This document shows, one piece after another, positions 30,924 through 58,701 of a DNA stretch of 64,000 nucleotides. The translations under genes and the position numbers were made by a program. This DNA is from a virus. The notes beneath the pieces were generated by a model that had not been told where the DNA came from, searched no databases, and saw only the letters and a list, made by a program, of their open reading frames with translations. Location of the stretch: positions 30,948 through 94,947 of IMG/VR virus record IMGVR_UViG_3300030406_003049. One strand, written 5' to 3'. Every line of letters starts with the position of its first letter. Within the stretch, counting starts at the first letter, position 1.

Positions 30924-32153
30924 ATGACATGGGAAAATATACTCAAAGACAAACCACTACTAGATATGAGAAGAATAAATAATCTATATTCCCCATATAT
31001 TGCATATCATGTAGCAGGGTTGATAGAATCCGAACTTTATGGAAAACTTAGAACTATTCCGTATAATGAAAAAATAAGCGACGCTTTAGAATATTGCATT
31101 AGTTTTGATTATAACGAATTTGCAGAAGAGATATTTAGTGGAAGCAAGGGCGACTATGGTATAGCAGATAAAGAAGCCGAAGGGTTGTATAATGATGGTA
31201 AAAAATTTGGTGGTAAATTTACTCTTAAAGTAAGATGGGAAAAACCCATGTATCAGTTTGAAGGAGTAGAAGAAGTTGGTAAAAAATTAGACGGTGTTGA
31301 ATTAGATATAGAATATGAAGGTTCATGGGCTAAAAATTATCAAGGTGTAAAACTAGGAAAGGGGCAGAATGTTAAAAATTTCAAAATCAATGCTTCTTCA
31401 ATTAAAAAACAACTAGACGAGGCACTAGAAGGTGCAACCATTAAACACGACGGAGAAGAATATGGAGTAATGTTAAGATTTTTAGACAAGCCTGACTTTA
31501 AAATTAAGGCTCTTCAAGACTTAATTGGGCGAGCATATATGGACTATGGCGGCACTATTGGTGACGACCCTGCAAGAAGTTATCCAAATTATAATAAAAG
31601 ACCAACTAGTAAAACTAAGAAAGAGTCTTGGCGTAGCGTTTTGCGAACTAGTGCTAACTTTGGCGGTAAGGGTAGAAGGAGCGACAAGAAAGTAGATGCT
31701 TATATGAAGGCTCTTGATATTGACAATGACCCCGAATCCATAGCAGATATGCAATCCGGTAAAAAACTCATACAAAATGATGTAGAAATTGCCGAAGGAA
31801 TAAGTGTAGATGATTTCTACAAAATAATGGATAAAGCGAATGTAAGTCAAGAAAAGTTAGAAGAAGAAGAAGAAGAGGCAGATGCGGAAGGTAGAGATGA
31901 ACTGATTTTTTACTTGCAGGGTGAAATGTCATCACTTGGTAAATTGGATTTAAATATAACTGTTCCTAATCTTGAGGAGCGAAACACAAAGCGTAGCAGA
32001 TATGGTTATATTGATGGAACTTATACCCCACTTACTTTTAACGAATATATGGAATTAGAAAACATAAAGGCTAAACAACATATATTTGAGATTGAAAAAG
32101 TAAAAGAAGGTTTTATGAAAATTTTTGAAGAAGTAAAAACATTAGGTGAATAA
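30924..32153 (+). CDS. Late protein with N-terminal W-tag, 409 aa
   Basis: Begins MTWENILKDKP after GGTGAATAAT; the GTG at 30915 is part of the ribosome-binding site. The rest is unfamiliar, with 'GKFTLKVRWEKPMYQFEG', a second Trp segment 'KESWRSVLRTSANFGGKG' and an acidic helix. The opening peptide M-T-W-x-x-I-L-K is shared with many proteins in this block and, in variant form, with the scaffold C-terminus, so virion cargo is likely. Confidence 0.65.
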   Translation: MTWENILKDKPLLDMRRINNLYSPYIAYHVAGLIESELYGKLRTIPYNEKISDALEYCISFDYNEFAEEIFSGSKGDYGIADKEAEGLYNDGKKFGGKFTLKVRWEKPMYQFEGVEEVGKKLDGVELDIEYEGSWAKNYQGVKLGKGQNVKNFKINASSIKKQLDEALEGATIKHDGEEYGVMLRFLDKPDFKIKALQDLIGRAYMDYGGTIGDDPARSYPNYNKRPTSKTKKESWRSVLRTSANFGGKGRRSDKKVDAYMKALDIDNDPESIADMQSGKKLIQNDVEIAEGISVDDFYKIMDKANVSQEKLEEEEEEADAEGRDELIFYLQGEMSSLGKLDLNITVPNLEERNTKRSRYGYIDGTYTPLTFNEYMELENIKAKQHIFEIEKVKEGFMKIFEEVKTLGE

Positions 32154-32154
32154 T

Positions 32155-32430
32155 ATGACATGGAAAGATATGTTGAAGAAAGATGATGGAAGAAAGGAAT
32201 TGAGACGAGAGATACTTCATCATAGAAGGAAGAAAGAAAGCAAGAAGCGTCAAATGGATAGGAAGAACCAAGATAGTAAAAAACCAAAAAGAAAAGTGAA
32301 TTATGCTAATCCAACAAGACTTGAGGATTTTCCTGAACATATAAAGGGAATTAGCCTACCTAGTAGTTTTGACCCCGATAAAGATAGTGTAGAAGATTAT
32401 CTTAAAGACCCTAAAAGATTTGAAAGGTGA
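32155..32430 (+). CDS. Basic W-tagged protein, 91 aa
   Basis: Begins MTWKDMLKKDDGRKEL (ATG 32155, GGTGAATAAT upstream). The middle is strongly basic (RRKKESKKRQMDRKN) and fits DNA binding inside a capsid. The C-terminus is acidic. It is one of five consecutive tagged genes. Function unknown. Confidence 0.6.
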   Translation: MTWKDMLKKDDGRKELRREILHHRRKKESKKRQMDRKNQDSKKPKRKVNYANPTRLEDFPEHIKGISLPSSFDPDKDSVEDYLKDPKRFER

Positions 32431-32435
32431 ATAAT

Positions 32436-32687
32436 ATGACATGGAAAGATGAGATAAAGAAAAGAGCATATCGTTATGATGGTGTTTTTTTAGTTAAGTT
32501 AAGAGAGGCAATAGATGATTTGGCTTCCGATTTAGAAGATATTGTTAGTGAAAAAGATATTAAGGAAATGGCTGAAAAATACAAGCAAAATTTTAGCCGT
32601 TATGAAATAGTCATTATGGCTTTAGAAGATGAAGCAAGAAAAATACAAGACCAATTAACCGAAGATGCTGAAACGGCAAAATACTAA
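32436..32687 (+). CDS. W-tagged helical protein, 83 aa
   Basis: Begins MTWKDEIKKRAYRYDG (ATG 32436). The rest is helical with acidic/basic alternation ('LREAIDDLASDLEDIVSE', 'IVIMALEDEARKIQDQL'). The same N-terminal tag as its neighbours; presumably packaged or assembly-linked. Confidence 0.6.
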   Translation: MTWKDEIKKRAYRYDGVFLVKLREAIDDLASDLEDIVSEKDIKEMAEKYKQNFSRYEIVIMALEDEARKIQDQLTEDAETAKY

Positions 32688-32697
32688 GGTGAATAAT

Positions 32698-33129
32698 ATG
32701 ACATGGAAAAACGCTATTCGCAAGGCAAGAGTATATGATTTTACATATACTACTGAACTTGAGAGGCGTAAGCATGGTAGATTGCATTCTATTACTGGTG
32801 GAAAGGGTGTCTATGAAACTGATTATGAAAAAGTCATAATTGAATGGAGTTTGACTTTTGAGAATAGCGAAGATTCAGTATATATCCAAGAGCCGAATAT
32901 TGACAAAATTACTGTAGTGGGTGTTGATGCTTCTTTTGATGAGGGCTTTGATGCGGCTAATATGGAATGGGATATAGAAAATAAAGATGTTGTAGTAGAT
33001 GATGTTCAAGCAGATATATATTTAAGCACTAAGGAATTACCTATGACTTTGATTCCTTACATAGATGCTGAATTGGTAAAAGACGGAGATGGATTGACAT
33101 TAGATGAAATTGTTATTACATTTGGATAG
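32698..33129 (+). CDS. W-tagged beta-rich protein, 143 aa
   Basis: ATG 32698 gives MTWKNAIRKARVYDF; an in-frame ATG at 32665 overlaps the previous gene. The body is beta-rich and acidic ('KVIIEWSLTFENSEDSVYI', 'DVQADIYLSTKELPMTLI'), unlike the basic tagged proteins, showing that unrelated bodies carry the tag. Confidence 0.6.
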   Translation: MTWKNAIRKARVYDFTYTTELERRKHGRLHSITGGKGVYETDYEKVIIEWSLTFENSEDSVYIQEPNIDKITVVGVDASFDEGFDAANMEWDIENKDVVVDDVQADIYLSTKELPMTLIPYIDAELVKDGDGLTLDEIVITFG

Positions 33130-33137
33130 GTGAAAAT

Positions 33138-33422
33138 ATGACATGGAAAGAAGAAATAAAGAAAAGAAGTATGAGAAGAAAACCACAAACAAAGATTGCA
33201 GGAGTAGGTAGAGTCACAAGAGCCAAAGACACCGGAACTGCAAAGAGAGGTAGAGAGCGAATGTTAGATGTAGACGAAACTAGTTTAGACGACAACAGAT
33301 ATGAAGAAATGTTGGCGGAGTCTACAAAACAAGAGTTGCTTGATGCTATTGAAAAACTAAGTCAAGAAGATTTAGTTAATATCTTTGTAGCGGCTAGAGG
33401 CGATGTTAAACTAAGGCTTTGA
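33138..33422 (+). CDS. W-tagged small protein, 94 aa
   Basis: Begins MTWKEEIKKRSMRRKPQ. A basic Thr/Arg region ('TRAKDTGTAKRGRERM') precedes an acidic helix ('QELLDAIEKLSQEDLVNIF'). One of the consecutive tagged genes; function unknown. Confidence 0.6.
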   Translation: MTWKEEIKKRSMRRKPQTKIAGVGRVTRAKDTGTAKRGRERMLDVDETSLDDNRYEEMLAESTKQELLDAIEKLSQEDLVNIFVAARGDVKLRL

Positions 33423-33427
33423 TAAAT

Positions 33428-33535
33428 ATGACACGGTGTAATTACTTAGATGGTTGGTTTGATGCAAAGTCAAAAGAATTAGATGAGGCCGAGAAAAAAC
33501 AAAAGAAAGATTTGATTACAGGTGAAAAGAAATGA
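33428..33535 (+). CDS. Hypothetical small protein, 35 aa
   Basis: From ATG 33428: MTRCNYLDGWFDAKSKELDE, then a Lys/Glu tail; its TGA overlaps the next ATG. It lacks the tag (MTR rather than MTW). Coupling supports it. Confidence 0.45.
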   Translation: MTRCNYLDGWFDAKSKELDEAEKKQKKDLITGEKK

Positions 33536-33900
33536 CTTGGGAAGATATTGTTAAAAATAGAGATGAGGTCAAAGCGAGAAAGCAAAGAGTTGCTGAAAGA
33601 AGAAAACTCCGAGAATCACCAAGTCATTTTTTACAGTCTGTAAAACAACTAAAGGACACAATTAAGACTTTAGAAAAACTAAGTAAGAAATATGACTATG
33701 ATAAAAAGAAAATGATTGATAATACTATTGCAGGGCTTGAGCAACAAATAGACAAACTAATGAGTATTGCTTTAGATAAAGGAGATACTTTTGAAAAAGG
33801 AGCAGGAGGAGTTTCTTTTGGCGGTCATGGAACTAACCCCGAATTATTTAACATAAGATATGGTAAAAAGCGGAGGAAGAAAGATGGGGAAAGAGACTAA
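33532..33900 (+). CDS. W-tagged helical protein, 122 aa
   Basis: Begins MTWEDIVKNRDEVKARK after AGGTGAAAAGA. Followed by 'RVAERRKLRESPSHFLQSVK', a coiled coil and a Gly-rich end 'EKGAGGVSFGGHGTN'. Same tag as neighbours, with acidic second position. Confidence 0.6.
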   Translation: MTWEDIVKNRDEVKARKQRVAERRKLRESPSHFLQSVKQLKDTIKTLEKLSKKYDYDKKKMIDNTIAGLEQQIDKLMSIALDKGDTFEKGAGGVSFGGHGTNPELFNIRYGKKRRKKDGERD

Positions 33901-35038
33901 AAAATCCGTTATTAATTACAATGGTAATGAGTTTTCAATTAGCGGAACTTATAAATTCATAAAAGAATATGAAGTTTGGAAAACAGTTTGTGAAGGAATA
34001 TCAAGTAAGAGACTTCTTAGCGAAGGCAGAAGAATAAGGCGTGATAGAGAAGGTAAAAAGAAAGGAACTATTGATACTAAAAGTGGACAACCTCACCCCG
34101 ATGATTTATACGGGCAATTAAGGCAACATGTCACCAGTGCTTATAGAAGGGAAAAATCCCCCAACAAAGGAGGAACAGGAACTTTTACTCTACTAAATGA
34201 TATAGACCAATTTATGAAAGATTTTCCCGATGTTGGGATTTTAACAGAAGAACATAGAGAAGACCTTGAAGCATTCAAGAAAAAAATAGATGGTTTCAAT
34301 GAACCAAATAGCACCTTAAATCCAAGAAACATAACTTTCAAATCTCCTAAAAAATATGATAAAAAAGGAAAAAACATTGGTGGAGCAGATGAAGTAGAAG
34401 TCTATTATGGACACTACGCTAATGAATGGTTTAAGGCTAAATACCCCGACGCAAAAAAAGCACCCTCAAAATGGTATAGCACTTCTAAAAATACGGCAAA
34501 TCCTCCATTGGCTCAAGCCTTATTTGGAAAGGGCGACTTGGTAAAAGTTGGTCTTAAGCAAGTAATTGATATTGCTATTGCTGAACTGAATAAAGATATT
34601 GATAATGTAAATATCGTAGTTAGGCGACCTTCATTACTAAACAGGTTTAAGTCAATTAGAAAGCATGTATTTTCTTTATTGAATAATAAAAATTTATTCA
34701 ATAAAGACGGAGTTCCTAATTTAACAAAAATGGCTCAAACATTTCAAGGCATGAGATTTACAATAGAAGGAAGAACCGCAGGTAAAAGATATGCCGGAAC
34801 TGAAAAAGAATCTTTGGCTAGAACCGCAGGTATTGATGTTCCGGCAGGTAATATCAAAACTTTTACTTTACAAAAAATAGGGAGACAGGCTATGGCTTCT
34901 CTAATTGTTGCAGTAGTTGGTAAAGGAAAGTCAAAGAAATTAAGATGGGGTGGCTATCTAAGATTAAAGGGCTTGAATGTTCCCGAAGAACCACAAGATG
35001 ATGTGAAGAAATCTTGGTATGAATATTTATGGGGTTGA
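33884..35038 (+). CDS. Hypothetical late protein, 384 aa
   Basis: ATG 33884 (MGKETKKSVINYNGNEFS) follows GGAGGAAGAAAG; the frame extends upstream but overlaps the preceding gene. Basic, with 'PSLLNRFKSIRKHVFSLL' and 'GKSKKLRWGGYLRLKGL' near the end, which finishes 'KKSWYEYLWG'. No family known. The Trp-rich C-terminus may be an unrelated assembly peptide. Confidence 0.6.
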   Translation: MGKETKKSVINYNGNEFSISGTYKFIKEYEVWKTVCEGISSKRLLSEGRRIRRDREGKKKGTIDTKSGQPHPDDLYGQLRQHVTSAYRREKSPNKGGTGTFTLLNDIDQFMKDFPDVGILTEEHREDLEAFKKKIDGFNEPNSTLNPRNITFKSPKKYDKKGKNIGGADEVEVYYGHYANEWFKAKYPDAKKAPSKWYSTSKNTANPPLAQALFGKGDLVKVGLKQVIDIAIAELNKDIDNVNIVVRRPSLLNRFKSIRKHVFSLLNNKNLFNKDGVPNLTKMAQTFQGMRFTIEGRTAGKRYAGTEKESLARTAGIDVPAGNIKTFTLQKIGRQAMASLIVAVVGKGKSKKLRWGGYLRLKGLNVPEEPQDDVKKSWYEYLWG

Positions 35039-35042
35039 TAAA

Positions 35043-35699
35043 ATGGTGACTAGAAAGCGTTGTGGATTTTGTCAGCATGAAGATAGAGAAGAATTAGAGG
35101 AGGCTCTTGAACAAGGTTCAGTAAGTTGTGATGATTTAGATAGAACCCATAATTGGAGAAGTGGAACTGCGGCACAACATCAAAGAAACCACATGGGGGA
35201 TTATGTCAATAGTAGTAATCCTAAATGTGTATTATGCACAGACCCGATGAGAAAACACTATGAAGAAAGTTTGTCAAATGGTGATATTACAAGTGAGGCT
35301 ATTGCCGAAGCATTAGGAACAACAAAAGAACAAATCCAAAGGCACATGAAACATCACTTAGCACCACTAGTTCAAGAATCAGCCGCAGTTGTTATAGCAA
35401 AAAAAGAAGTAAATGAAATTGATTTACTAAGCACTAACATACAAAGGCTAGATAGCAAATTAGATGATTTATTTAATGCGGTTGATTTAGAACCTAGAGA
35501 AATAGATAGTCTAACTAAACTTGCGAAAGAAGTTAGAGAGTCGTTAAAATATCTTATGGAGTTTAAGGGCAAACTTATACATAAGAGACAGGACACAATT
35601 ATATTTGCACAGATGCAAATTGTCCAAGAAGTGCTTGCTGAAAACAATCCCGAAATTTGGTTAGACATTAAGAAAAGAATGCAGGAGAAATTACAATGA
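35043..35699 (+). CDS. Tandem zinc/helix DNA-binding protein, small terminase candidate
   Basis: 218 residues with two related modules: CGFCQHEDREELEEAL ... 'SGTAAQHQRNH' and 'CVLCTDPMRKHYEESL' ... 'TSEAIAEALGTTKEQIQRH'. Each looks like CxxC...H-x3-H around a helix-turn-helix. The C-terminal third is a coiled coil. DNA-binding modules plus an oligomerisation helix are typical of small terminase subunits, but the large terminase is 7 kb downstream, so this is uncertain. Confidence 0.5.
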   Translation: MVTRKRCGFCQHEDREELEEALEQGSVSCDDLDRTHNWRSGTAAQHQRNHMGDYVNSSNPKCVLCTDPMRKHYEESLSNGDITSEAIAEALGTTKEQIQRHMKHHLAPLVQESAAVVIAKKEVNEIDLLSTNIQRLDSKLDDLFNAVDLEPREIDSLTKLAKEVRESLKYLMEFKGKLIHKRQDTIIFAQMQIVQEVLAENNPEIWLDIKKRMQEKLQ

Positions 35700-36268
35700 G
35701 TTGGGAAGACATACTTAAACAAAAATTTGATTTTAACAAGTTAAAATTTTATAGTCAAGGAGGCCAACAAGACCCTCATGGTTGGCGTGGACTATATCAA
35801 TTCCCAAAGGGAGGTTATTTTAGTATTGTCATGGGGCGTGGAGCATTTAGTAAACCCGAAACATATCTTAAAGACCCAATGGCGTATGAAGGATATGAAG
35901 TATTGTTAAGACACCCTGTTATAGATGAGGCTTACGAATTAGAATTTCTAGGCGTAGCCCCCGATTTATTAAACAACTATGAGAAAATTTCATCATATGA
36001 AGAACCCATTATTTTCAAAAATTTAACAAAAGAAGAAGTGTCCGAAATTGCTAGACTAGTTGAAGAAACTCCTCATTCAGTAATAGAGGAAAGAAAACTA
36101 GATTCTTATTCTTCATACAAAGCAGAAGAAGCAACAACAGTTGAAGATTATGACTCGTTAATTGAGCATTTTAAGAAAGATAACATGGAACTAGATGAAA
36201 AAGAAAGAAAATACCTAATAGATAAATTTACTAGAATGAAAAAAGACTTACAGGAGGGCAAAAAATGA
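35696..36268 (+). CDS. W-tagged protein, 190 aa
   Basis: Begins MSWEDILKQKFDFNKLK; its start overlaps the previous stop (ATGA). The body has 'GWRGLYQFPKGGYFSIVMG' and an acidic helical C-terminal half. The tag uses Ser and different codons from the earlier genes, pointing to selection on the peptide. Confidence 0.6.
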   Translation: MSWEDILKQKFDFNKLKFYSQGGQQDPHGWRGLYQFPKGGYFSIVMGRGAFSKPETYLKDPMAYEGYEVLLRHPVIDEAYELEFLGVAPDLLNNYEKISSYEEPIIFKNLTKEEVSEIARLVEETPHSVIEERKLDSYSSYKAEEATTVEDYDSLIEHFKKDNMELDEKERKYLIDKFTRMKKDLQEGKK

Positions 36269-36462
36269 ATTGGGAAGATGTATTAAAATTACAAGCATAC
36301 TCCGGCACTTGTCCTAAGTGCGGCACATTTAGACCAAGAGAAGGAACTTCTGTTTGTCCAATAAAAGACCCTCAATGCCCTATGGAAACTAAGAAAAAAA
36401 CTTCTCTAATTGATAGAGCAAGACAGGCGAATAGAGAAGACCCTAGAATGGGAAGTAGATAA
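36265..36462 (+). CDS. W-tagged zinc-ribbon protein, 65 aa
   Basis: Begins MNWEDVLKLQAYSGTCPKCG; second Cys pair 'CPIKDPQCPM', then a basic tail. The tag is joined to a zinc ribbon. It overlaps the 190-aa gene by 4 nt. Confidence 0.6.
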   Translation: MNWEDVLKLQAYSGTCPKCGTFRPREGTSVCPIKDPQCPMETKKKTSLIDRARQANREDPRMGSR

Positions 36463-36477
36463 TTGGGGTAGTTTGTT

Positions 36478-38589: not shown

Positions 38590-38591
38590 AC

Positions 38592-41117: not shown

Positions 41118-41121
41118 TATT

Positions 41122-41823
41122 ATGGAGCAAGTTTCCGGCCCACATACAAAAGAAGAGGCGGAGGAGGCTTACAATGAAGATAATCCCGATGATAAAATCA
41201 ACCGTGATGTTCCCGAATGGTATGAATTAGACCAATATGTAATTAGAAGGGTAAATGGTAAAGTAGTAGGGATAGCGGGGTGGGCTGATAAGGGCGACTA
41301 CGCTATACTTGGAGGAATGAAATCAAAGGAGGGTTCTAAAAGTTGGAAACCTATGGCTAATAAGCGAGAACAACTTATTGGAGATAAGCCAAAGATAGCA
41401 GGATTTAGAACACAAAAAATTCCTCTTGAAAGGTGGAAACAAAAAAACAGAACAGAATATGATTGGGAAATACCACCGGAAGACACTATGGGTATAGATG
41501 AAGAAATGTTAGCAAACTTTACTGAAAGATACGGTGATGATTTCGGCATTAAGAAATGGTGGGACTTAATTAAGAGGCGAAGTGTTATGAGCGACTTTCA
41601 ATGGAAACAATTGATTGTTGGTATTAAGGAAGATAGATTTCCTAAAGATAGAACAAAATATGTTAGATATTCAAACTTAGATACTATTAATAGAAGAATG
41701 GTAAATGGTTATTTGAAAAAAGGAGTAAAGAATCCCGAAAAAAGAAACCAATATCTAAAGGGTATTGCCGATGAAATGTCTAGGAGTAGTAATCAAAGAT
41801 ATGAATTGGAGGATAGGAGTTAA
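41122..41823 (+). CDS. Hypothetical protein, 233 aa, possibly GNAT-like
   Basis: The N-terminal half ('YVIRRVNGKVVGIAGWADKG' then 'DYAILGGM') has the strand pattern of a minimal acetyltransferase fold, but no clear acetyl-CoA loop is seen. Residues near 145 read 'IKKWWDLIKRRSVM', a W-x-x-I-K peptide like the late tag but internal. Immediately before the tagged 216-aa protein. Confidence 0.5.
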   Translation: MEQVSGPHTKEEAEEAYNEDNPDDKINRDVPEWYELDQYVIRRVNGKVVGIAGWADKGDYAILGGMKSKEGSKSWKPMANKREQLIGDKPKIAGFRTQKIPLERWKQKNRTEYDWEIPPEDTMGIDEEMLANFTERYGDDFGIKKWWDLIKRRSVMSDFQWKQLIVGIKEDRFPKDRTKYVRYSNLDTINRRMVNGYLKKGVKNPEKRNQYLKGIADEMSRSSNQRYELEDRS

Positions 41824-42473
41824 TGTGGTTTGATATTCTAAAGGTCATGCCTCCGAGCAAATATGAGGCTTATGCGATACCCGAACATGATATGTCCGAA
41901 GTTGATAACCCCGCACAGGCTTTTGATTATGACACGACTAGGGTTATTGTAAGAGGCCATTATTTAATGAGAGTTAAGGAAAGAACTTCTAATAGAAATA
42001 CTGATGAAATTGAAAAATGGGTTAATTGTGTTAAAGACAAGGCTCAAGGAAAATATTGGTTTTATAGAACAAGCGATGAAAATAATTATGAAATTATTTT
42101 AGTGGATATTTATACTACAAAAGAAGCGAACATAGCGGGAACAAAAAAGAAATTTAATCGTAATATGAGAAACCCCGAAACTAAAGAATTGATAACGAAA
42201 CTAATTGTTTTTACAAATTATTTTGGTGGGAGGGTTTTGCTTACTCAATCCCAATTATCAAAAGATTATAGAGGAAGAAAAAGGATAGATTGTTTTTATC
42301 AAGGTGTTAAGCCTAATCACCCTAAAGGACAGGCTATGCTTGAAAAAGAACCAAAAAGGGAAGAACCAAAAGAAAAACCAAAGCCAAAAGAAAAACCAAG
42401 AGGATTTACGCTTCCGCCTCCCCCTCCAAGAAGAAAAAATAAAAATAGACAAAGAAATAGAAGGAGGAGATAA
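41823..42473 (+). CDS. W-tagged protein with Pro/Lys tail, 216 aa
   Basis: Begins MWFDILKVMPPSKYEAYA, a shortened form of the tag. The middle is a mixed alpha/beta domain; the tail is Lys-Pro-Glu repeats and 'RRKNKNRQRNRRRR'. The basic tail suggests DNA contact. It lies directly before the large terminase. Confidence 0.55.
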   Translation: MWFDILKVMPPSKYEAYAIPEHDMSEVDNPAQAFDYDTTRVIVRGHYLMRVKERTSNRNTDEIEKWVNCVKDKAQGKYWFYRTSDENNYEIILVDIYTTKEANIAGTKKKFNRNMRNPETKELITKLIVFTNYFGGRVLLTQSQLSKDYRGRKRIDCFYQGVKPNHPKGQAMLEKEPKREEPKEKPKPKEKPRGFTLPPPPPRRKNKNRQRNRRRR

Positions 42474-43916: not shown

Positions 43917-45272
43917 ATGCCGACTGCGGAGGAATATAGAGAGGGTTCGGAACAAATGAATCGCCTTGCAGAACTGCAAGAAGAACAAGATGAAACTAAA
44001 GATGAAATTGAGGAAGCATTAGGAACTAAATTGGCTTCTGTTGATGATTACATTATGTCGGACTATGAAGCAGTAAATTTACTTTCTAAAAATTTAAACA
44101 TCAATGCTAGTGATGCTAGAAAACAATTAAGTTCTTTTCCCAATGAATATTCTATTGATGGTGAAAACATACCCGACTTAGTAAAAAAGATGAGAAAGGC
44201 TCGTAGAAAATTAAAGGGAGAACAACGAACTAGAATGGCTAAAGCGATTGATACTGTTATTGATGGCTACTCCGACCATATCAACAAGTGCATAGATTCT
44301 ATTTACTGGATTAAACCATACAAACCGGCTATTCTTAAGATGGGTTTTAGTGAAAAAGACTTAATGAAAATAAACAAGATTGATTCTGTAAACGATAGAA
44401 GAAACATTATTGATGCAATATGTAAGTATTGGGAGAGCGATTTAAAGAAAGAAGGCATGGTTTATTCTAAGGAATATGCTCAATTAGAAAAAGAATGCCG
44501 TATTGCTAAAAGAGATTACAAGCAACAAATAAAAAATATATCCGACCAATCAATAACTAAAAGCAAAAAAGAAAGAATTATGTCTTTCATTGAAAGTGAA
44601 ATAATAAAGAGTCCTTCTATCGGTGCTAAACAAATACATGATAGAATGCCTAACAATCTACATAAAAGCACAACAACAAATATGATTTCTAAAATGGTGA
44701 AGAAACTTGATGTTGCTAACATTGATGGAGCATATTACAAATTACCAACAATGCTTAAGAAAAATATTTGGGCTTATACTGCGGCTTTTATTGACTCCGA
44801 TGGCTATATTACAATGGATAGAAACCACAATCCTAGAGTTGGTCTTATTGCTACAGGTGAAAGAGGCAGGGCATTTATGGAAGAAATGCACAAGAGTATA
44901 GGTTTTGGTAAATTACATTTGAATCAAAAATCCCCACAACAAACTAGACCTGTTCAAAGATTAAACTTTTATTCACAAAACGATGTGTATAATTTGTTAA
45001 GTAAGTGCTTGCCGCATTTTAAACTAAAGAAAGGTAATGCTAAATTACTCATGGAACTTATACGAATGAAAAAATCCTACAAAAAAGAAGATTGGTATAA
45101 AGGTCGTTGTGATGAAATTTTTAAATTAATGAAGTGGGAGAATCATAAAGACCATGTTGGTTTTGATTGGTTAAAAGAGGGAATATATCTTGACGATATA
45201 CAGAAATACAAAGACAACTGTAAAATGTCTTTAATGGATAGTATGGAAAACATAGGGGGTGTCTTGGCTTGA
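43917..45272 (+). CDS. LAGLIDADG homing-endonuclease-like protein, 451 aa
   Basis: A long helical N-terminal region is followed, near residue 285, by 'AYTAAFIDSDGYITM', a clear LAGLIDADG-type helix with acidic residue retained, and 'RGRAFMEEMHKSIGFGKL'. Only one copy of the motif is seen, so it would act as a dimer or as a DNA-binding protein. A free-standing endonuclease gene beside terminase suggests homing, but the long N-terminal part, with a helix-turn-helix-like 'SIGAKQIHDRMPNNLH', suggests added function. Confidence 0.75.
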   Translation: MPTAEEYREGSEQMNRLAELQEEQDETKDEIEEALGTKLASVDDYIMSDYEAVNLLSKNLNINASDARKQLSSFPNEYSIDGENIPDLVKKMRKARRKLKGEQRTRMAKAIDTVIDGYSDHINKCIDSIYWIKPYKPAILKMGFSEKDLMKINKIDSVNDRRNIIDAICKYWESDLKKEGMVYSKEYAQLEKECRIAKRDYKQQIKNISDQSITKSKKERIMSFIESEIIKSPSIGAKQIHDRMPNNLHKSTTTNMISKMVKKLDVANIDGAYYKLPTMLKKNIWAYTAAFIDSDGYITMDRNHNPRVGLIATGERGRAFMEEMHKSIGFGKLHLNQKSPQQTRPVQRLNFYSQNDVYNLLSKCLPHFKLKKGNAKLLMELIRMKKSYKKEDWYKGRCDEIFKLMKWENHKDHVGFDWLKEGIYLDDIQKYKDNCKMSLMDSMENIGGVLA

Positions 45273-45415
45273 ATACAAAAGAATGGGTGATTAGTAAAAA
45301 GAAACTTGATTTCAAGTATTGCGGTAGGTGCTACATAACAAGAGATGTTCACCCATTCGGTTTTTGTAGAAAGTGTTGGGAACAAGCAGATAAACCAAAG
45401 AAGGTGAAGGTATGA
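45269..45415 (+). CDS. Zinc-ribbon protein, 48 aa (TTG start)
   Basis: TTG at 45269 follows GGGGGTG and overlaps the LAGLIDADG gene's stop. 'CGRCYITRDVHPFGFCRKC' holds the two Cys pairs of a ribbon. The stop overlaps the next ATG. Confidence 0.5.
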   Translation: MNTKEWVISKKKLDFKYCGRCYITRDVHPFGFCRKCWEQADKPKKVKV

Positions 45416-45618
45416 GTTGGGAAGAAATATTGAAAAAGAAAAAGAAAAAATCTACTGTAAACCAAGCGGGTAATTATACTAAACCTGCTATGCGTAAAAG
45501 AATCTTCAATAGAATAAAAGCAGGAAGTAAAGGCGGGGCTAAAGGTCAATGGTCGGCTAGAAAGGCACAGATGTTAGCCCAAGCCTATAAACGGGCAGGT
45601 GGCGGCTATCGTAATTAA
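45412..45618 (+). CDS. W-tagged basic protein (DUF5872-like core), 68 aa
   Basis: Begins MSWEEILKKKKKKS, then 'YTKPAMRKRIFNRIKAGS' and 'KGGAKGQWSARKAQMLAQ', which from memory is the core of a widespread phage domain (similar to DUF5872) of unknown function. The tag is fused to a domain that elsewhere occurs alone, good evidence that the tag is modular. Strongly basic. Confidence 0.65.
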   Translation: MSWEEILKKKKKKSTVNQAGNYTKPAMRKRIFNRIKAGSKGGAKGQWSARKAQMLAQAYKRAGGGYRN

Positions 45619-45883
45619 GTGGTGGAATATCCTAAAAGCCAAGTCAAAAAGGCAACAGGATTTAACCCAATGGACACAGGAAGATTGGGGAAGTGCCGAA
45701 CAACATAGAGCGAAAGCAAAAGGAAAGAAACCTAAATCAAAAACTAAAGGAAGATATATGCCTAGAGCGACCTATCAAAGAACAGATAAAAAAACACTAA
45801 GGTATCAAGACGCTAAGAAAAGAAAAGGCCGTAAAAAAGGCATTCAACATGTGCCGACAGGAAAGAAGTTTAGTCAAAAGTGA
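45599..45883 (+). CDS. W-tagged basic protein, ~94 aa
   Basis: The start is uncertain: GTG 45599 overlaps the previous gene. The peptide IKWWNILKAKSK follows at once, so the true start may be an ATT at 45614. The rest is very basic ('GKKPKSKTKGRYMPRATY', 'YQDAKKRKGRKKGIQHVP'). Likely a DNA-condensing internal protein. Confidence 0.5.
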   Translation: MAAIVIKWWNILKAKSKRQQDLTQWTQEDWGSAEQHRAKAKGKKPKSKTKGRYMPRATYQRTDKKTLRYQDAKKRKGRKKGIQHVPTGKKFSQK

Positions 45884-45888: not shown

Positions 45889-46332
45889 ATGTGGCGGCAA
45901 ATCCTAAAGAAAGATATGTCCTACTGCGTTTGTAGTGGTAAAAATAAAACTAAAGGATTTACTTGTGAAGCACATTGTAGGAGTAAAGAAATGAAAAAGG
46001 CTGACCCGAAAAAAGGAACGGGTAAAAAACCAAAAGGTTCAGCAAGAAGATTATACACAGATGAAGACCCAAGCGATACTGTTCCCGTAAAATTTAGAAC
46101 AAGACAAGATGTTCAAGAAACATTTAGCAGTAGTGCGTTCAAATCTAAATCTCATAAAAGGCAGTCGCAAATAATTAACTTAGTAGAACAAAGATTGCGA
46201 GCCGCAGTTAAAAATGCTAAAGATTCTAAAACAAAGAAAAGGCTAAAAACGGCACATACTTACGCTAAACAAAGAAAAGAAGCGAGTAAGCAAAAAACAA
46301 AGAGCAGAAGTAGAGGAGCGTTTACAAGATGA
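45889..46332 (+). CDS. W-tagged basic Cys protein, 147 aa
   Basis: ATG 45889 gives MWRQILKKDMSYCVCSG; an upstream GTG at 45880 is less likely. A Cys cluster 'CVCSGKNKTKGFTC' with 'CEAHC' is followed by a strongly basic helical tail ending 'KQKTKSRSRGAFTR'. Fits an internal DNA-binding protein. Confidence 0.6.
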   Translation: MWRQILKKDMSYCVCSGKNKTKGFTCEAHCRSKEMKKADPKKGTGKKPKGSARRLYTDEDPSDTVPVKFRTRQDVQETFSSSAFKSKSHKRQSQIINLVEQRLRAAVKNAKDSKTKKRLKTAHTYAKQRKEASKQKTKSRSRGAFTR

Positions 46333-46682
46333 GTTGGAAAAATATACTAAAAACAGAAGACGAAAAAGCCCATTGTGGAACTAAGCAAGATGAGAAAATG
46401 CTTTATGGAAATCAAAAAAGAATTGATAAAGACAAAGATGGTAAAATAACTGGAAAAGATTTTGCTATGCTTAGAGATGAAAAGAAAGCCATGAAAACCG
46501 ATGCTCAAATAGAAAAAGAAATACTTGCTGAAATTAAAAAAGAAGGAGGAGCATTGGGTATGAAAAACCTAAAAGCAATATGTCCTCCTAAAGAATTAAA
46601 GAGAGTTCTTAATGCTATGAAAAGAAAGAAAGTTATATTCATGCACAAAGATGGAGATATTTACACCCATAATCCGAGATGA
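46329..46682 (+). CDS. W-tagged protein with EF-hand-like loop, 117 aa
   Basis: Begins MSWKNILKTEDEKAHCG. Residues ~31-43 read IDKDKDGKITGKDF, matching the EF-hand calcium loop (D-x-D-x-D-G-x-I-x3-D). The C-terminal half looks like a winged helix ('NLKAICPPKELKRVLNAMKR'). The mix of tag, Ca loop and DNA-binding-like domain is unusual. Confidence 0.6.
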   Translation: MSWKNILKTEDEKAHCGTKQDEKMLYGNQKRIDKDKDGKITGKDFAMLRDEKKAMKTDAQIEKEILAEIKKEGGALGMKNLKAICPPKELKRVLNAMKRKKVIFMHKDGDIYTHNPR

Positions 46683-46686: not shown

Positions 46687-47088
46687 ATGACTTGGAAAAT
46701 TATTCTTAAACAACTTGAGTGTCCTTTGGCTACACAGGACTTAGAAGTTAATACTAAGAATAGAGATGCCGCAGTTAAAAATCCTAACATTAGATATGGG
46801 CCACTTAACCTTAACGATAAAAAATATTGGGAAGAATACGCTAAGAGATGGAAGACTACACCCGAAGTAGCAAAGAAGTCTAATTGCAGTAATTGTATTG
46901 CTTTTGATATTTCACCTAGAATGGACGACTGTATGCCTTTAACTACTGATGAAGATGGGCGTTTAGGCTATTGTCATATGCACCATTTCAAGTGTCATTC
47001 AGCAAGAACTTGCTATACTTGGGCTAAAGGTGGCCCAATTGATGATGATAAAACTTCTAAAGAAAATCAAATGAGGAGTAAAAAATGA
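46687..47088 (+). CDS. W-tagged Cys-rich protein, 133 aa
   Basis: ATG 46687 gives MTWKIILKQLECPLATQD. The core 'KSNCSNCIAFDISPRMDDC' and 'GYCHMHHFKCHSARTCYTWA' is a Cys/His domain seen in marine phage hypotheticals, perhaps binding metal or FeS. Tag and core are again combined. Confidence 0.65.
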   Translation: MTWKIILKQLECPLATQDLEVNTKNRDAAVKNPNIRYGPLNLNDKKYWEEYAKRWKTTPEVAKKSNCSNCIAFDISPRMDDCMPLTTDEDGRLGYCHMHHFKCHSARTCYTWAKGGPIDDDKTSKENQMRSKK

Positions 47089-47393
47089 ATTGGTTTGATA
47101 TAGTTAAAAGAAAGAAACACCCTGCTTTGAAAAGAGCCGGTGTTAGTGGCTTTGGAAAACCTAAGAGAACTCCTAAGCACCCTAAAAAATCACATGTTGT
47201 AGTTGTCAAAGATGGGGATAAAGTCAAAACTATTCGCTTCGGAGAACAAGGAGCAAGTGTAGCGGGTAAGCCAAAAAAGGGTGAAAGCAAAAGAATGAAA
47301 GCAAAAAGAAAATCTTTCAAAAGTCGCCATAGAAAAAATATCAAAAGAGGCAGAACTAGTGCCGCTTATTGGGCTAATAAAGTTAAGTGGTAA
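47085..47393 (+). CDS. W-tagged basic protein with 'FGEQG' core, 102 aa
   Basis: Begins MNWFDIVKRKKHPALKRAG. Core 'VVVKDGDKVKTIRFGEQGAS' then 'KGESKRMKAKRKSFKSRH' and 'GRTSAAYWANKVKW' is a phage domain I recall without assigned function. Overlaps the previous gene by 4 nt. Confidence 0.65.
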   Translation: MNWFDIVKRKKHPALKRAGVSGFGKPKRTPKHPKKSHVVVVKDGDKVKTIRFGEQGASVAGKPKKGESKRMKAKRKSFKSRHRKNIKRGRTSAAYWANKVKW

Positions 47394-47395
47394 GT

Positions 47396-47629
47396 ATGCC
47401 TTATGAATTAAGAGTTGGTAAAGACGGCTATTATGTAGTTAATACTGACACTAAGAAAAGAAAAAATAAACACGGCATGTCAAAGTCAAAAGCAAAAAAA
47501 TACATGGCCGCTTTATACGCTAATAAAAATCCCAAGCAATACGACACTAAGCCTAAAAGAAAGAAAAGTATAACTGGCGGTTGGCGTGGAGTTTTACGAA
47601 AACATTTGCGAAGATTCTATAATAGATAG
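47396..47629 (+). CDS. Basic late protein with C-terminal Trp helix, 77 aa
   Basis: ATG 47396 gives MPYELRVGKDGYYVVNTDTK, then 'HGMSKSKAKKYMAALYANK'. The end 'ITGGWRGVLRKHLRRFYNR' has a W-x-x-V-L-R-K helix that resembles the tag placed at the C-terminus. Very basic. Confidence 0.55.
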   Translation: MPYELRVGKDGYYVVNTDTKKRKNKHGMSKSKAKKYMAALYANKNPKQYDTKPKRKKSITGGWRGVLRKHLRRFYNR

Positions 47630-49306: not shown

Positions 49307-49533
49307 TGACAGAAGATAATAGACAGAAAGAGATTAGACTAAAGAAAGAATTAGCGAGAGTTAGGACACAGAATGCAAATGAAACTAGAAAGACCACAAA
49401 GAATCGTGATTTTTCTATTGGTGGATTACCACCGGACACAACTCATAAGGCTATAAGAGCATCTAATGATGTTCCCGATGTTATCTTACCCCCACAAAAA
49501 AGGAGAGGTAAGAAAGAGAATATTCCGTTTTGA
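49306..49533 (+). CDS. Small charged protein, 75 aa
   Basis: Begins MTEDNRQKEIRLKKELARV, a coiled coil, then 'IGGLPPDTTHKAIRASND' and a Lys/Arg end. Overlaps the portal stop by one base; perhaps a portal-linked assembly factor. Unknown. Confidence 0.6.
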   Translation: MTEDNRQKEIRLKKELARVRTQNANETRKTTKNRDFSIGGLPPDTTHKAIRASNDVPDVILPPQKRRGKKENIPF

Positions 49534-49542
49534 GGCGATACT

Positions 49543-53969: not shown

Positions 53970-54214
53970 GCGAAGAAAATACAATTAATGAAGAACTACT
54001 TGAGATTATTAAAGCCCTTAGTGCTAAGATAGAAAGTTTAGAGAAAGCAGTTTACAATGACGATAATCTACTAATGAAGTCCGGTTTTGTTGTTGTAGAT
54101 AGTCCAACTCCCAAAATGAATCATGGAACTATCGGTGGTTCACCATTGAAAGATGTTGGAAATATGGATTGGAAAGATATTCATAAGATGGTAGAAAATG
54201 TAGGTGGACAATAA
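53966..54214 (+). CDS. Small scaffold-like protein with C-terminal W-tag, 82 aa
   Basis: A helical start (MSEENTINEELLEIIKALSA), then a flexible middle and the end GNMDWKDIHKMVENVGGQ. The same peptide closes the protease-scaffold protein (DMDWSDIHKMVGGI). Scaffold C-termini commonly bind the capsid shell, so this may be a second scaffold or an adaptor. Confidence 0.65.
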   Translation: MSEENTINEELLEIIKALSAKIESLEKAVYNDDNLLMKSGFVVVDSPTPKMNHGTIGGSPLKDVGNMDWKDIHKMVENVGGQ

Positions 54215-54579
54215 TGGCTGAAAATTGGAAGGAAATATTGAAGGCGGCTATGCCGATAGGACAAATGCAAAGAGATACAGAAAGTAATTTAAGTAATATC
54301 GTAAATAAATTAATTGAAGAGACTAAATACACTGATAGGCTCAATAAAAAATTAGGAAAGGCAGTTAGAGCAAATCCCGATAAAGAAATCTATGTTGTTC
54401 CTTCTCCTATTTTTAATAGGATTTCTCAAAAGTTTAGGTTTAGAGGACAACCCGAAAAGATAGTAGATATGCTAGAACAAAAATTAGCCCAAGAATATCA
54501 AGCAGAAAAGGTAGTAATCTTTCCTAAAGAAATAAGATTTGAGGGAATAAAACAACCTCCCGAAGAAGATACAATATAA
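54214..54579 (+). CDS. W-tagged late protein, 121 aa
   Basis: Begins MAENWKEILKAAMPIGQMQ: the tag is set two residues in. Followed by helical segments and 'SPIFNRISQKFRFRGQPEKI'. It directly follows the C-terminally tagged protein, sharing one base. Confidence 0.6.
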   Translation: MAENWKEILKAAMPIGQMQRDTESNLSNIVNKLIEETKYTDRLNKKLGKAVRANPDKEIYVVPSPIFNRISQKFRFRGQPEKIVDMLEQKLAQEYQAEKVVIFPKEIRFEGIKQPPEEDTI

Positions 54580-54593
54580 AGAGAGTTGATATA

Positions 54594-54836
54594 ATGCCGG
54601 AAAGAGTAAGTAAAGAAGAAAGAATAGTTAGCCTTGCTATTGAAAAAGCAAGAAAGGCTAAAGAAGAATTAAGCGCAAAGAAAAGAAAGAACATTGAGCC
54701 AACTCAACTATTGGAAATAGATACTGACCCCGAAGTTGAAAAGATTAAGAGGCCAAAGGTGCAAGATGCTTCTAAGATTACTAATCAAACTCAAAAGAAA
54801 GAAGGGTATGGTTTAGCCGGTGAAACTAACAAGTGA
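54594..54836 (+). CDS. Charged late protein, 80 aa
   Basis: A Lys/Glu-rich helix ('IVSLAIEKARKAKEELSAKK') followed by a disordered-looking tail. No motif. Close to the ligase-like gene downstream (7 nt). Confidence 0.55.
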   Translation: MPERVSKEERIVSLAIEKARKAKEELSAKKRKNIEPTQLLEIDTDPEVEKIKRPKVQDASKITNQTQKKEGYGLAGETNK

Positions 54837-54842
54837 TGTAAT

Positions 54843-57392
54843 ATGCCTCTCCTTATTGAGAAGGATAAGTCAATATCCACAGATATTCTAAGACTCTTTG
54901 AAAGAACGAGAGTCGCTTATCTTTCAGCAAGAACCGACCCAAAAGAATACGGTTCTAAATGGAGAAACGCAGTAAATAAAATCAAAGAAGCATATGAAAT
55001 GACCGACGCTCTTTCAAATGAACTTAAGGATTATATTGATGAAGACTTATTAGAATCAAATGATGTTTCCGATGTTAGCACCAACAATGCTGAAAAGTTA
55101 TATGAAGGAATCAAAGCACTAAGATATTCTTCCGATGAAGTTAGCGACCCTTTCGCTAAAAAGTTCAAAGGTAATGTGTTAGAAGCATTATTAGAATCAC
55201 CCGAACTTATGATTAAGTTTGTTCACTACGCTATTAGAGAAGATGATAAGGCACTACCAAAGGAAGCGTATTCAATCAAAGATATGAAGCCCGATGATAT
55301 TACAGACGGTTTAACAGGATTAGATTTAGAAGTTGATGATGTTGCACTTTACATCATAGAACATTATGGTGATGGTAAAGATTCTAAAAAAGTAGAAACA
55401 AAAGTAAAAGCCGCTATGAATATGTTAGAATTAATATTCTTATCTAAAAATACTAAACAAGATTGGGCGGAACTAGAGGACATAGATACTGAATTAGATG
55501 AAGCGAAGGCTAAAGATGATAAAGACGAGGATAAAAAAACTATTCTCAAAGAAAAGAAGTCCAATGAAGAAAAAGCCCAAAGTGATTTTATTATTCCTAA
55601 CAAACCAATGTATAGAATATTCACAATAGAAGACATGAATGAGTTGAAAGGTTTTACAGGTGAATTTTATGTTCAAGAAAAATACGATGGTTTTAGAATA
55701 CAACTTCATAAGATAGATAAGAACATAAAAATCTATGACTATACAGGTAAAGACATTACATCAAAGTGTAAAGAAGCAGTTGAAGAACTAAAGAAAAAAC
55801 ATTTCGGTGATTGTATATTAGATGCTTCTTTGGTTTTATTTGATGGTGAAGATTCACTAAAAAGAAAAGAAGCCGTAGAATATTTAGAAGGTAAAAGAGA
55901 AGGAACACCTAGAATACATGTCTTTGATATTATGAGACACAATGAAGAAAACCTAATGGAAGATACTTTACAGAACAGAATGCAAATAATGTTCAACAAC
56001 TATTCTATTCATTCTACCGAAGCACTAACATTCCCATCTAAAAAAGATACAAGAGTAGCGGATAATCTAAAAGATGTTGAAGAATATTCTAAGAAGATTA
56101 TGGAGATGCCTACTGCCGAAGGAGTTATGATAAAAGATGCGACTTCAACATACTTCTTAGGAACTAAGAAAAATCCAAAGTGGATTAGATGGAAGCCTGT
56201 AGTAGAATTAGATTTGATTGTTCTTGATAAAAAACAAAGTGGTTCTAACTATTCTTACAAGTTAGGAGCAGGGCCAGTTGAAGAAGGAGATGAAAAAATA
56301 GAAGGTGTGAATTACCTTAATGTTGGTAGTGCAACTAATACTAAAGTTTCAGCCGATGTTGGAAACATAGTTAGAGTTTCAATAGATAAGGTCAAAGAAG
56401 TCAAAGGAAAACCTATGGTTTATTCAGCAAAGATAAATGAAATTGCTGAATCTATTACACCCGATAAATTAGTGACATTACAAATGCTAGTAAAAGATAC
56501 TGATAAATCACTAAATTATACAGTAGAAGAAGTAGAAAAAGGAATTGTAATTACAGACCATATTCACGGTGAAGCCAATATAATTATCAAAGGAGACATG
56601 GAAGGTTTTACTATCTATGGTTTTGAAAGAGATAATTTAATGGCTAAAAATGCAATTATGGATTTAGACTTATGGAAAAATCAAGCAGAAGAAATAATGA
56701 AAACAAAACAATCTAAACTTACAGTTGCTATATTTAATTACTTGAAAGAAAAAGGAGCAAAAACTCCTAAAGAAGTTCACAACTTTTTGGTAAAGAATCA
56801 TAAAGATAACTACCAAGATATATTAGAAAGCAAAGAAAGCAAAGTAAAAGATTGGTTTGAAAATAGAGATGGTATATCTTTTGATGCTAAAACAAAGAAA
56901 CTATTTGCTGAAAATGATAAAATAATGTTAGATTCAATTAAAAAAGAATATAAAACACCCGAAGAATATAGACAAGGGCAATATAAATTATATCTTAGAG
57001 ATGATGATAATTTAAATTTAGTGATGAAATTGGGTGATGAAAGCATTAATTGGTTAATACGATTAGATTCACAAGATGATATTTTTGAATTGTTTGGTAA
57101 AGCAGGTAAGTTCCCTGCTATCGTTGCTAAGAATATTTCAAAAAGAAAACTGTTAGATAGTGGAGATGTTAAATTAGGAGTTCAAAGAGAAGGCTACCAT
57201 GAATATTTCTTAGATGGTAATAAATTTGAAACTAAACTCCATGTTAGAATGCTTGAAGTTAAAGGAAAAAGAATGTGGTTAGCATGGACAGGCTATGAAC
57301 AGAAACCTGCTGATACTGATACAGATAGAGGCTTATGGAACATTTATGAAGATAAGTTTAGCAGTCTTAAATTACCTCCAAAAGAGGACTAA
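54843..57392 (+). CDS. DNA ligase-like nucleotidyltransferase in the virion block, 849 aa
   Basis: Residues ~255-600 form a ligase domain: motif I VQEKYDGFRI (K280), motif III at 'CILDASLVLFDG', IV 'TAEGVMIKD', V 'WIRWKPVVELDLIVLD'. In motif III the Glu of the canonical L-D-G/A-E is Ser. The N-terminal 250 residues are a charged helical domain, and the C-terminal 250 have 'GVQREGYHEYFLDGNKFET' of unknown role. It sits between scaffold-like and protease genes rather than with replication genes, so it may be packaged or act in assembly. The 7927 gene is the likely replicative ligase. Confidence 0.75.
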   Translation: MPLLIEKDKSISTDILRLFERTRVAYLSARTDPKEYGSKWRNAVNKIKEAYEMTDALSNELKDYIDEDLLESNDVSDVSTNNAEKLYEGIKALRYSSDEVSDPFAKKFKGNVLEALLESPELMIKFVHYAIREDDKALPKEAYSIKDMKPDDITDGLTGLDLEVDDVALYIIEHYGDGKDSKKVETKVKAAMNMLELIFLSKNTKQDWAELEDIDTELDEAKAKDDKDEDKKTILKEKKSNEEKAQSDFIIPNKPMYRIFTIEDMNELKGFTGEFYVQEKYDGFRIQLHKIDKNIKIYDYTGKDITSKCKEAVEELKKKHFGDCILDASLVLFDGEDSLKRKEAVEYLEGKREGTPRIHVFDIMRHNEENLMEDTLQNRMQIMFNNYSIHSTEALTFPSKKDTRVADNLKDVEEYSKKIMEMPTAEGVMIKDATSTYFLGTKKNPKWIRWKPVVELDLIVLDKKQSGSNYSYKLGAGPVEEGDEKIEGVNYLNVGSATNTKVSADVGNIVRVSIDKVKEVKGKPMVYSAKINEIAESITPDKLVTLQMLVKDTDKSLNYTVEEVEKGIVITDHIHGEANIIIKGDMEGFTIYGFERDNLMAKNAIMDLDLWKNQAEEIMKTKQSKLTVAIFNYLKEKGAKTPKEVHNFLVKNHKDNYQDILESKESKVKDWFENRDGISFDAKTKKLFAENDKIMLDSIKKEYKTPEEYRQGQYKLYLRDDDNLNLVMKLGDESINWLIRLDSQDDIFELFGKAGKFPAIVAKNISKRKLLDSGDVKLGVQREGYHEYFLDGNKFETKLHVRMLEVKGKRMWLAWTGYEQKPADTDTDRGLWNIYEDKFSSLKLPPKED

Positions 57393-57450
57393 TTGTTTAA
57401 AATAACCGTGTGTATTATATATTAGAAGTAAATTTTTTCCATATGAGCAA
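57393..57450 (+). promoter_or_regulatory. Promoter before protease-capsid genes
   Basis: GTTTAAAATAA (57396-57406), identical to the word at 30901, and TTATATATT (about 57415) lie before the ATG at 57451. Both are TATA-like. A separate promoter for the capsid genes would allow high expression. No classical ribosome-binding site is seen. Confidence 0.45.
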
Positions 57451-58701
57451 ATGTCTTCGGCAATCTTAGCAACTAGGAATGATGGCTTCTCCATCATAAA
57501 GAGTAGTAGCGATGATTTGATGATTGGTGGATATGCTAGTATTGAAATTGTTGATAAACAAAACGATTTGATTACACTTAAAGCACTTAATGAAGCAGTT
57601 GCTAAATTTATGCAAGATTCTAAATTTAGAAATGTAATGACAAACCATTCTAATGTTCAAGTTGGAGAGGTTGTAGATTCTTATAGAGATAAAACCGGCA
57701 GACTTTGGAAATCCGAAGTTGATGATGTTGGTTTCTTTGTAGTAATTAAACTACGAGATGATATAGAAAAGGCCAAAGAAGTAGGTCGCAATATTCGCAA
57801 AGGGTCGTTGAGGTCTTTTAGCATAGGAGGACAAGCCCTCCAAAAAGTAAAGAAAAGTAATGAAAACTTGGGAGAGTATAATGAAATCAGCAAGTTAGAG
57901 TTGCATGAAATTACTATATGCGAAAAAGGAATCAACCCCGAAGCGAGATTTGATATTTTGAAACAAGATAAGACAGGTGAAAAAACTATGAGTAATAAAC
58001 TAGAGAAAGCATTAGCGGAGTTAGACACTTTGCTAGAAGAAGTAAATACGCTTCGTAAAGAAGAAGAGATGCTTGATGAAAAAGGCATGAAAGAAGAAGA
58101 GATGGCTGATGAAACAGAAATGGGCGACTACGGCATGGACAAGGAAGATGAAGAAGATATGGACATGAAAGAAGATGAAGAAGACATGGACGAAAAAGGC
58201 ATGGGCGAATATCAAGATGAAGAAGCAAAGGCTTACTTGAGAACTCTTGATGGTGCAGGAAACCAAATTGGAGAACCTGCTGACCGTATCGTTATTAACA
58301 ACGGTAAGCCAACTGCTTCCGATATGCCGGTTGTAAAGGCATTTGATAATGGTGAATTTGACACACTAGATTTGTCAAACGCTAACATTGAGAAGGCTTA
58401 TGAGGCGTTCCGACAAGAACAACTTGAAGCACTTGCTTACGACAACCTAAAGAAGTCCTTTGAAGCAAGATTCGCTAGAGAAGTTTCAACAAGAGAGAAT
58501 GTTATCGCCAAGCAAAACTATGATGCACAAAGCGAGATTGCTTCTCTTAAGAATGAATTTACACAACTAAGGAAATCTTTGACTGCTGAAAAAGAAACTA
58601 TCCTAAAGGCACAAGAAGAATCCGCAATTAAACTCCCAAGTATGGAAGAGATGGCTGACATGGATTGGTCGGACATTCACAAAATGGTAGGAGGAATTTA
58701 A
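57451..58701 (+). CDS. Prohead protease fused to scaffold, C-terminal W-tag
   Basis: 416 residues. The N-terminal 150 match U35 (HK97 gp4-like) proteases: H66 in 'VMTNHSNVQVGEV' and the Ser pair in 'GSLRSFSIGGQAL' (about 119-130), then 'LHEITICEKGIN'. The middle (~215-250) is very acidic (Glu/Asp/Met repeats), the rest helical scaffold, and the last residues are MADMDWSDIHKMVGGI. Such fusions form the procapsid core and are then cut away. The tag at its end, shared with cargo proteins, is the key observation. Confidence 0.88.
   Translation: MSSAILATRNDGFSIIKSSSDDLMIGGYASIEIVDKQNDLITLKALNEAVAKFMQDSKFRNVMTNHSNVQVGEVVDSYRDKTGRLWKSEVDDVGFFVVIKLRDDIEKAKEVGRNIRKGSLRSFSIGGQALQKVKKSNENLGEYNEISKLELHEITICEKGINPEARFDILKQDKTGEKTMSNKLEKALAELDTLLEEVNTLRKEEEMLDEKGMKEEEMADETEMGDYGMDKEDEEDMDMKEDEEDMDEKGMGEYQDEEAKAYLRTLDGAGNQIGEPADRIVINNGKPTASDMPVVKAFDNGEFDTLDLSNANIEKAYEAFRQEQLEALAYDNLKKSFEARFAREVSTRENVIAKQNYDAQSEIASLKNEFTQLRKSLTAEKETILKAQEESAIKLPSMEEMADMDWSDIHKMVGGI

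Follow-up and report, generated by a model that had tools for sequence, protein, structure and literature searches.

The same short peptide, roughly M-S-W-x-D-I-L-K, is carried by 9–25 unrelated late proteins in a group of archaeal tailed viruses, and most likely represents an address label for loading proteins into the head. Genome comparison shows that the motif is real and portable, that it is under selection as protein, and that it is restricted to this virus group, where it keeps to the late strand and the surroundings of the head module; its carriers are fast-changing accessory proteins with untagged relatives elsewhere. That these carriers are head proteins we infer from the position of their genes. 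By analogy, the tag is best read as a signal that loads cargo into the procapsid in the manner of the capsid-targeting sequence (CTS) of T4.

The window, i.e. the whole stretch of 64,000 nucleotides analysed here, corresponds to bases 30948–94947 of a virus record of 94,947 bp. Its plus-strand half encodes a terminase, a portal, a prohead protease–scaffold fusion and an HK97-type major capsid protein, and its minus-strand half encodes replication genes and a thermosome. The protease fusion (57451..58701, + strand) combines a Peptidase_S78 domain with an acidic linker and a helical scaffold region; its assignment rests on Pfam (E=7e-10) and PHROGs (head maturation protease), since a PDB structure search with its model (pLDDT 59.8) gave no significant match. 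The capsid protein (58703..60040, + strand; SU10_MCP in Pfam, major head protein in PHROGs) is untagged and about 25% identical to those of the Haloarcula tailed viruses HVTV-1 and HCTV-1, the closest cultured relatives; the best annotated capsid matches are to Druskaviridae (25%). Magroviruses (order Magrovirales) have been described as tailed-virus genomes of 90–110 kb, with head and replication modules on opposite strands and a capsid related to Haloarcula tailed viruses (PMC12999244), and have been linked to the marine Poseidoniales (PMC12999244, PMC10160649). With a record of 94,947 bp, opposite-strand modules and a capsid related to Haloarcula viruses, the virus of the window matches this published description as far as layout, size and capsid relationship go, the agreement consisting of these features.

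Some other genes deserve mention. An 849-residue protein (54843–57392), sequence-related to the ATP-dependent DNA ligase of this virus, is encoded inside the head operon in 17 of 17 genomes, flanked by the small assembly genes on one side and the protease on the other, in addition to the separate ligase copy of the replication module (7927–9459). A protein of 841 residues (38592–41117) is also present in all 17 genomes, is untagged in nearly all, and ends in a conserved ..VYLIKANFR in most of them, with variants such as IYKIKGLFR in divergent genomes. Between the terminase and the tagged small genes lies a gene (43917–45272) that, judged by sequence only, is likely of the homing-endonuclease type.

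The first-pass annotation had listed 16 late genes, at least fifteen of them with a common start peptide, and all 16 carry the peptide where it was placed. On the plus strand, N-terminal tags were identified as MTWENILK (30924..30947, in the 409-residue gene 30924–32153), MTWEDIVK (33532..33555), MSWEDILK (35696..35719), MNWEDVLK (36265..36288, a small CxxC protein with a weak zinc-ribbon match), MSWEEILK (45412..45435), MSWKNILK (46329..46352, with a sub-threshold EF-hand match in the body), MTWKIILK (46687..46710, with a cysteine-rich body) and MNWFDIVK (47085..47108). The exact forms proposed for the other starts did not all hold, although the peptide is present in each. The relaxed forms KDMLK, KDEIK, KNAIR and KEEIK are found in MTWKDMLK (32155..32178), MTWKDEIK (32436..32459), MTWKNAIR (32698..32721) and MTWKEEIK (33138..33161), while MWFDILK (41823..41843) and MWRQILK (45889..45909) lack a residue between Met and Trp, the start at 54214 reads MAENWKEILK (54214..54243), and KWWNILK occupies residues 7–13 of gene 45599 (45617..45637). 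A stricter pattern finds 12 plus-strand starts in the window and none on the minus strand, compared to 0–1 in each of ten order-3 Markov sequences of equal length.

In addition, copies absent from the earlier list were found, again on the plus strand. Two are C-terminal, i.e. KKSWYEYLWG in gene 33884–35038 (35006..35035) and the tag-like WRGVLRKHLRRFYNR in gene 47387–47629 (47582..47626), and two are internal, i.e. KKESWRSVLR as a second copy in gene 30924–32153 (Trp at 31629–31631) and WWDLIK at a fusion junction in gene 41122–41823 (41557..41574). The tail genes of the record (G000, 1–21 kb) and the minus-strand replication half contain no tag. Three similar minus-strand proteins of about 150–167 residues (25340–25810, 27702–28160 and 29174–29677), apparently paralogues, have FWASIRxL or xWDG/xWNG stretches in common.

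The comparison set consists of 17 related genomes or near-genomes of 72–96 kb, with capsid proteins that are 44–98% identical to each other. In this set, M-x-W-x-x-[IVL]-[LIV]-K starts 269 genes (9–25 per genome), every one of which is on the strand of the capsid gene, compared to 52% of predicted genes. These genes surround the head module, and none is among the replication genes. The motif rate is 0.101 at residue 3 and 0.00016 inside proteins, an enrichment of about 600-fold, and at extreme C-termini (last 0–3 residues) the motif occurs at 13 of 4,204 positions versus 34 of 235,301, a 22-fold enrichment. The absence of the peptide from orthologues in related genomes, named in the first-pass annotation as a refuting outcome, did not occur among the 17 genomes. 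Within the search pattern, which fixes the tryptophan, Ile is found at +3 in 219, Leu at +4 in 210 and Lys at +5 in 263 of the 269 genes, and Asp, Asn or Glu is preferred at +2. No conservation is seen after the lysine (entropy at least 3.7 bits from +6 onward), indicating a unit of about eight residues that ends at this residue.

A peptide with Trp, Ile and Leu next to Lys, Asp and Glu would suit a small amphipathic helix, and could direct its carriers to a place outside the virion, such as the host membrane, a virus factory or a host complex, or set protein stability. We consider this unlikely, as the tags keep strictly to the capsid strand near the head module and are absent from replication genes, as C-terminal use and the nearly fixed lysine (263/269) argue for a defined groove, and as a collection of cellular genomes gave chance-like matches only. 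Recognition by the virus-encoded chaperonin (thermosome, 11865–13382) was another candidate, since a thermosome is encoded by the virus of the window and by 12 of the 16 other genomes. However, three near-full genomes of 94–96 kb (G024, G032 and G057) have 15, 25 and 12 tags and no thermosome, which is a contradiction unless their records are incomplete; this candidate was therefore rejected as highly improbable.

The tagged proteins have little else in common. Their bodies form 166 sequence families, 119 of which occur in one genome only, and alignment of 140 family representatives yields the consensus MxWxxILK and nothing more, in agreement with the earlier view that the bodies are unrelated. 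The median number of genomes per family is 1 for tagged genes versus 13 for untagged genes of the same span, with shorter and more frequently basic products for the former than for the latter. No tag was found on the portal, capsid protein or protease in any of the 17 genomes. Searches with the 140 tagged families identified 12 matching library families in Pfam and 15 in PHROGs, nearly all in a single member, including GNAT acetyltransferase, PAP2, pentapeptide repeats, DUF5754 and DUF6321; with such sparse matches, body function does not decide the mechanism. Arrays of tagged paralogues were observed in a few genomes, with seven members in G036 (MxWxDILKExITQS...), four in G004 and three plus three in G032 (L366, L103, L348, L352), which suggests expansion of single cargo families.

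Since ribosome-binding-like sequences precede most tags and some tagged genes are tandem paralogues, we considered whether the shared peptide might be a side effect of a signal in the nucleic acid (promoter or translation start region) or of gene duplication. A nucleic-acid signal is contradicted by the 29 nucleotide versions in which the I-L-K of the tag is written, by the ordinary codon use of the tag isoleucine (p=0.51 compared to the rest of the same genes) and by the C-terminal and internal copies, and duplication by the 166 sequence families that carry the tag. Such an origin is very improbable, and it was rejected on the grounds of codons, C-terminal copies and unrelated bodies. The leucine codons of the tag do differ, with less TTA than in the rest of the same genes. 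The earlier claim that codons vary between genes was upheld, and selection acts on the tag as protein.

The tag is also found in other places than N-termini. The family of gene 33884 ends in KKSWxExLW or SWQDILR(W) in most genomes, and its member in G023 has the N-terminal tag MAWQQVLK as well. In a structural model of this family (pLDDT 79.5), which gave no significant match in a PDB structure search, the C-terminal copy is a separate helix following a low-confidence linker. In G057_6, the separate gene G024_9 recurs as a 96% identical copy that retains the tag where the two parts meet, and in G009_80 a C-tagged type of body is joined to an N-tagged type, with both tags at the seam. Internal copies of the tag thus mark gene fusions, and the internal copy in gene 41122 of the window is explained likewise, by a fusion with the tag at the junction.

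Several bodies have relatives in other viruses. The 45412 gene reads MSWEEILKKKKKKSTVNQAGNYTKP..., and its untagged relative gp66 of roseophage CRP-13 reads MAKAKKSTVNAAGNYTKP...; gp63 of HMO-2011, also without the tag, is 83% identical over 52 residues to the 45412 body. Marine bacteriophages of this kind also contain relatives of genes 45599 and 45889. The 46687 family is tagged in 11 of the 11 genomes that have it, and its phage relatives bear the annotation of high-potential iron-sulfur proteins. The tag is absent from all phage relatives read for 45412, 45599, 45889 and 46687. Taken together, extreme C-terminal use, copies at fusion junctions and untagged body relatives in other viruses indicate that the tag is portable, and it is best described, on this comparative evidence, as a peptide added to recruited proteins. 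On this point the earlier description is supported, namely that a protein-level terminal peptide is attached to late proteins of the head region that are unrelated to each other. Between 45412 and 46332, three adjacent tagged small basic proteins match adjacent untagged genes of pelagiphages and related marine phages (gp39, gp40 and gp42 in HTVC033P), a cassette common to archaeal and bacterial viruses.

The C-terminus of the scaffold (MDWSDIHKMVGGI, 58660..58698, + strand), with a tryptophan kept in every relative read, is related to that of an 82-residue protein encoded by gene 53966 (MDWKDIHKMVENVGGQ, 54164..54211, + strand), likely an assembly protein. Both had been regarded as near copies of the tag. 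They do exist, are conserved, and match the tag in W-x-[DE]-[IL], and in nearly all relatives they share the motif M-[DES]-W-x-[DE]-[IL]-[HND]; in the scaffold model a short C-terminal helix starts at W406. However, this is a motif of their own, as the two ends change together between clades (from HKM to N/D-[DE]-L), whereas the N-terminal tags stay ILK across the scaffold clades, with Lys at +5 in 98% of cases in both. The joint change is as expected if both ends meet the same partner. Scored by the tag profile, the scaffold ends fall at about the 86th–99th percentile of non-tag tryptophan sites. Given these scores and the failure of the tags to follow the clade change, the likeness is read as partial, and the claim that the tag, as a near copy, binds the capsid site of the scaffold end was not sustained. 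The partial likeness may reflect a shared docking surface.

We propose that the tag acts as a short linear targeting signal by which its carriers dock on the growing procapsid, become enclosed, and act in the head or are delivered; this is the likely explanation of the sequence patterns. Late in infection, M-[S/T/N]-W-x-[D/N/E]-[I/V]-[L/I/V]-K at either end of a protein would form a small docking helix, and candidate docking components of the procapsid are the scaffold–protease core, the product of gene 53966 and the capsid protein. The docked carrier would be enclosed in the procapsid, and would then have its role within the head or be delivered together with the viral DNA. Procapsid docking, internal location and delivery are what we infer from the restriction to the head region, the untagged core structural genes, the portability, the turnover of cargo and the neighbouring prohead protease, all of which fit loading of the T4 type. 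Two observations count against this reading: the scaffold end resembles the tag in part only, without covariation, and a search of 825 patterns found no shared cleavage motif downstream of the tag (best uncorrected p 0.0017). Docking onto the outside of the virion or at the portal or neck, as in decoration or head completion, would be equally compatible with the late head-module genes, the portability and the occurrence at either terminus. The odds are clearly against such an external role, as many unrelated, genome-specific and often basic small carriers are more like internal or ejected proteins than decoration proteins, and the partial likeness to the scaffold ends points inside. For internal loading, a bolder version would have one eight-residue docking code acting as a universal cargo-loading system for all of this abundant marine archaeal virus group, with the tag at either end, 9–25 changing packaged and delivered effectors per virus and a dedicated pocket of a kind not known from other viruses; we hold this version to be slightly more doubtful than probable.

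Among known systems, the T4 CTS is a peptide of about ten residues at the N-terminus of the internal proteins IPI, IPII and IPIII and of Alt (PMC9026906, PMC3012670, PMC5694885). Its carriers are otherwise unrelated, small, basic and fast-changing, and are taken by the peptide into the prohead core; on its own it can bring in foreign proteins, and a general role in the uptake of various proteins by T4-like phages has been proposed for it (PMC9026906, PMC3012670). By these features, T4 internal-protein targeting was a precedent of the right kind (PMC9026906). Similarly, the peptide described here is short and N-terminal on unrelated proteins (269 genes, 166 families), with a head role presumed from gene position, its carriers are often small, basic and fast-evolving next to conserved core head genes, and a prohead serine protease is present. 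Unlike the CTS, it occurs in an archaeal-virus group, is built on an invariant tryptophan with I-L-K, has 9–25 carriers per genome compared to about four in T4, and is also found at C-termini and fusion junctions, with no fixed cleavage site found, whereas in T4 the prohead protease cuts off the peptide at a defined adjacent site. The likeness is proposed as one of kind, and no homology is claimed for peptides this short.

Encapsulin cargo-loading peptides are short portable peptides on unrelated cargo of an HK97-fold shell, and resemble the tag in both respects. In contrast to encapsulins, whose shell is without genome-packaging genes, the capsid gene here lies alongside protease, portal and terminase homologues, so that the shell belongs to a tailed virus, and the tag is mostly N-terminal. 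Capsid-binding helices at scaffold C-termini are known from tailed phages, and protease–scaffold fusions from herpesviruses. A protease–scaffold fusion, a conserved terminal helix and a second small protein with the same end are found here too, whereas the motif of the scaffold end, W-x-[DE]-[IL]-[HND], is distinct and overlaps the cargo tag in part only. Finally, the ejection proteins of giant phage SPN3US have long N-terminal propeptides proposed to target them into the prohead (PMC5694885). These are likewise N-terminal segments with a proposed role in prohead targeting, but they are mostly longer than 100 residues and cleaved, and have no short motif common to many unrelated proteins.

No description of the tag motif was found in the open literature, a body that leaves subscription papers mostly outside, in line with the earlier statement that it is undescribed. 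If the inference holds, the tag would be like the T4 CTS, with a different sequence, scale, use of both ends and virus group. As a loading signal it would allow packaged proteins of abundant uncultured viruses to be listed from sequence alone (269 in 17 genomes, nearly all without assigned function), and would make directly testable what archaeal tailed viruses carry into their hosts. It would also show that a mechanism well understood in T4 operates in archaeal viruses, at larger scale, and could yield a minimal tag for filling virus-like particles with proteins.

Outside the 17 genomes, the DNA pattern of the tag matched at least 119 stretches in viral contigs, and 112 of those listed have tagged open reading frames, most of them several. 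Of 49 longer records among the listed viral matches, 36 match the capsid profile as well, and the others are, as far as can be told, fragments or chance hits. In bacterial and archaeal genomes (257 Gb), the same pattern gave 72 scattered single matches, 59 of them without a tagged open reading frame and none titled Poseidoniales. The head genes read in HVTV-1, HCTV-1 and a Methanomassiliicoccales virus carry no tag, and the virions of HVTV-1 and HCTV-1 can therefore not serve to test loading. This distribution of viral and cellular matches, together with the untagged cultured relatives, suggests that the tag is an invention of this virus group. The C-terminal regions of the prohead proteases of HVTV-1 (gene 119) and HCTV-1 (gene 111) (L383, L384) contain a tryptophan in a KSWE[QE][ED] context, about 25–30 residues from the end, which is possibly a relic or parallel of the scaffold-end tryptophan, the stretch being too short to tell. 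One record of 184,733 bp (L051 / G007) is about twice as long as the usual genome and has two distinct terminase genes, with 87% and 81% identity to that of the window, and possibly represents two viruses joined in assembly.
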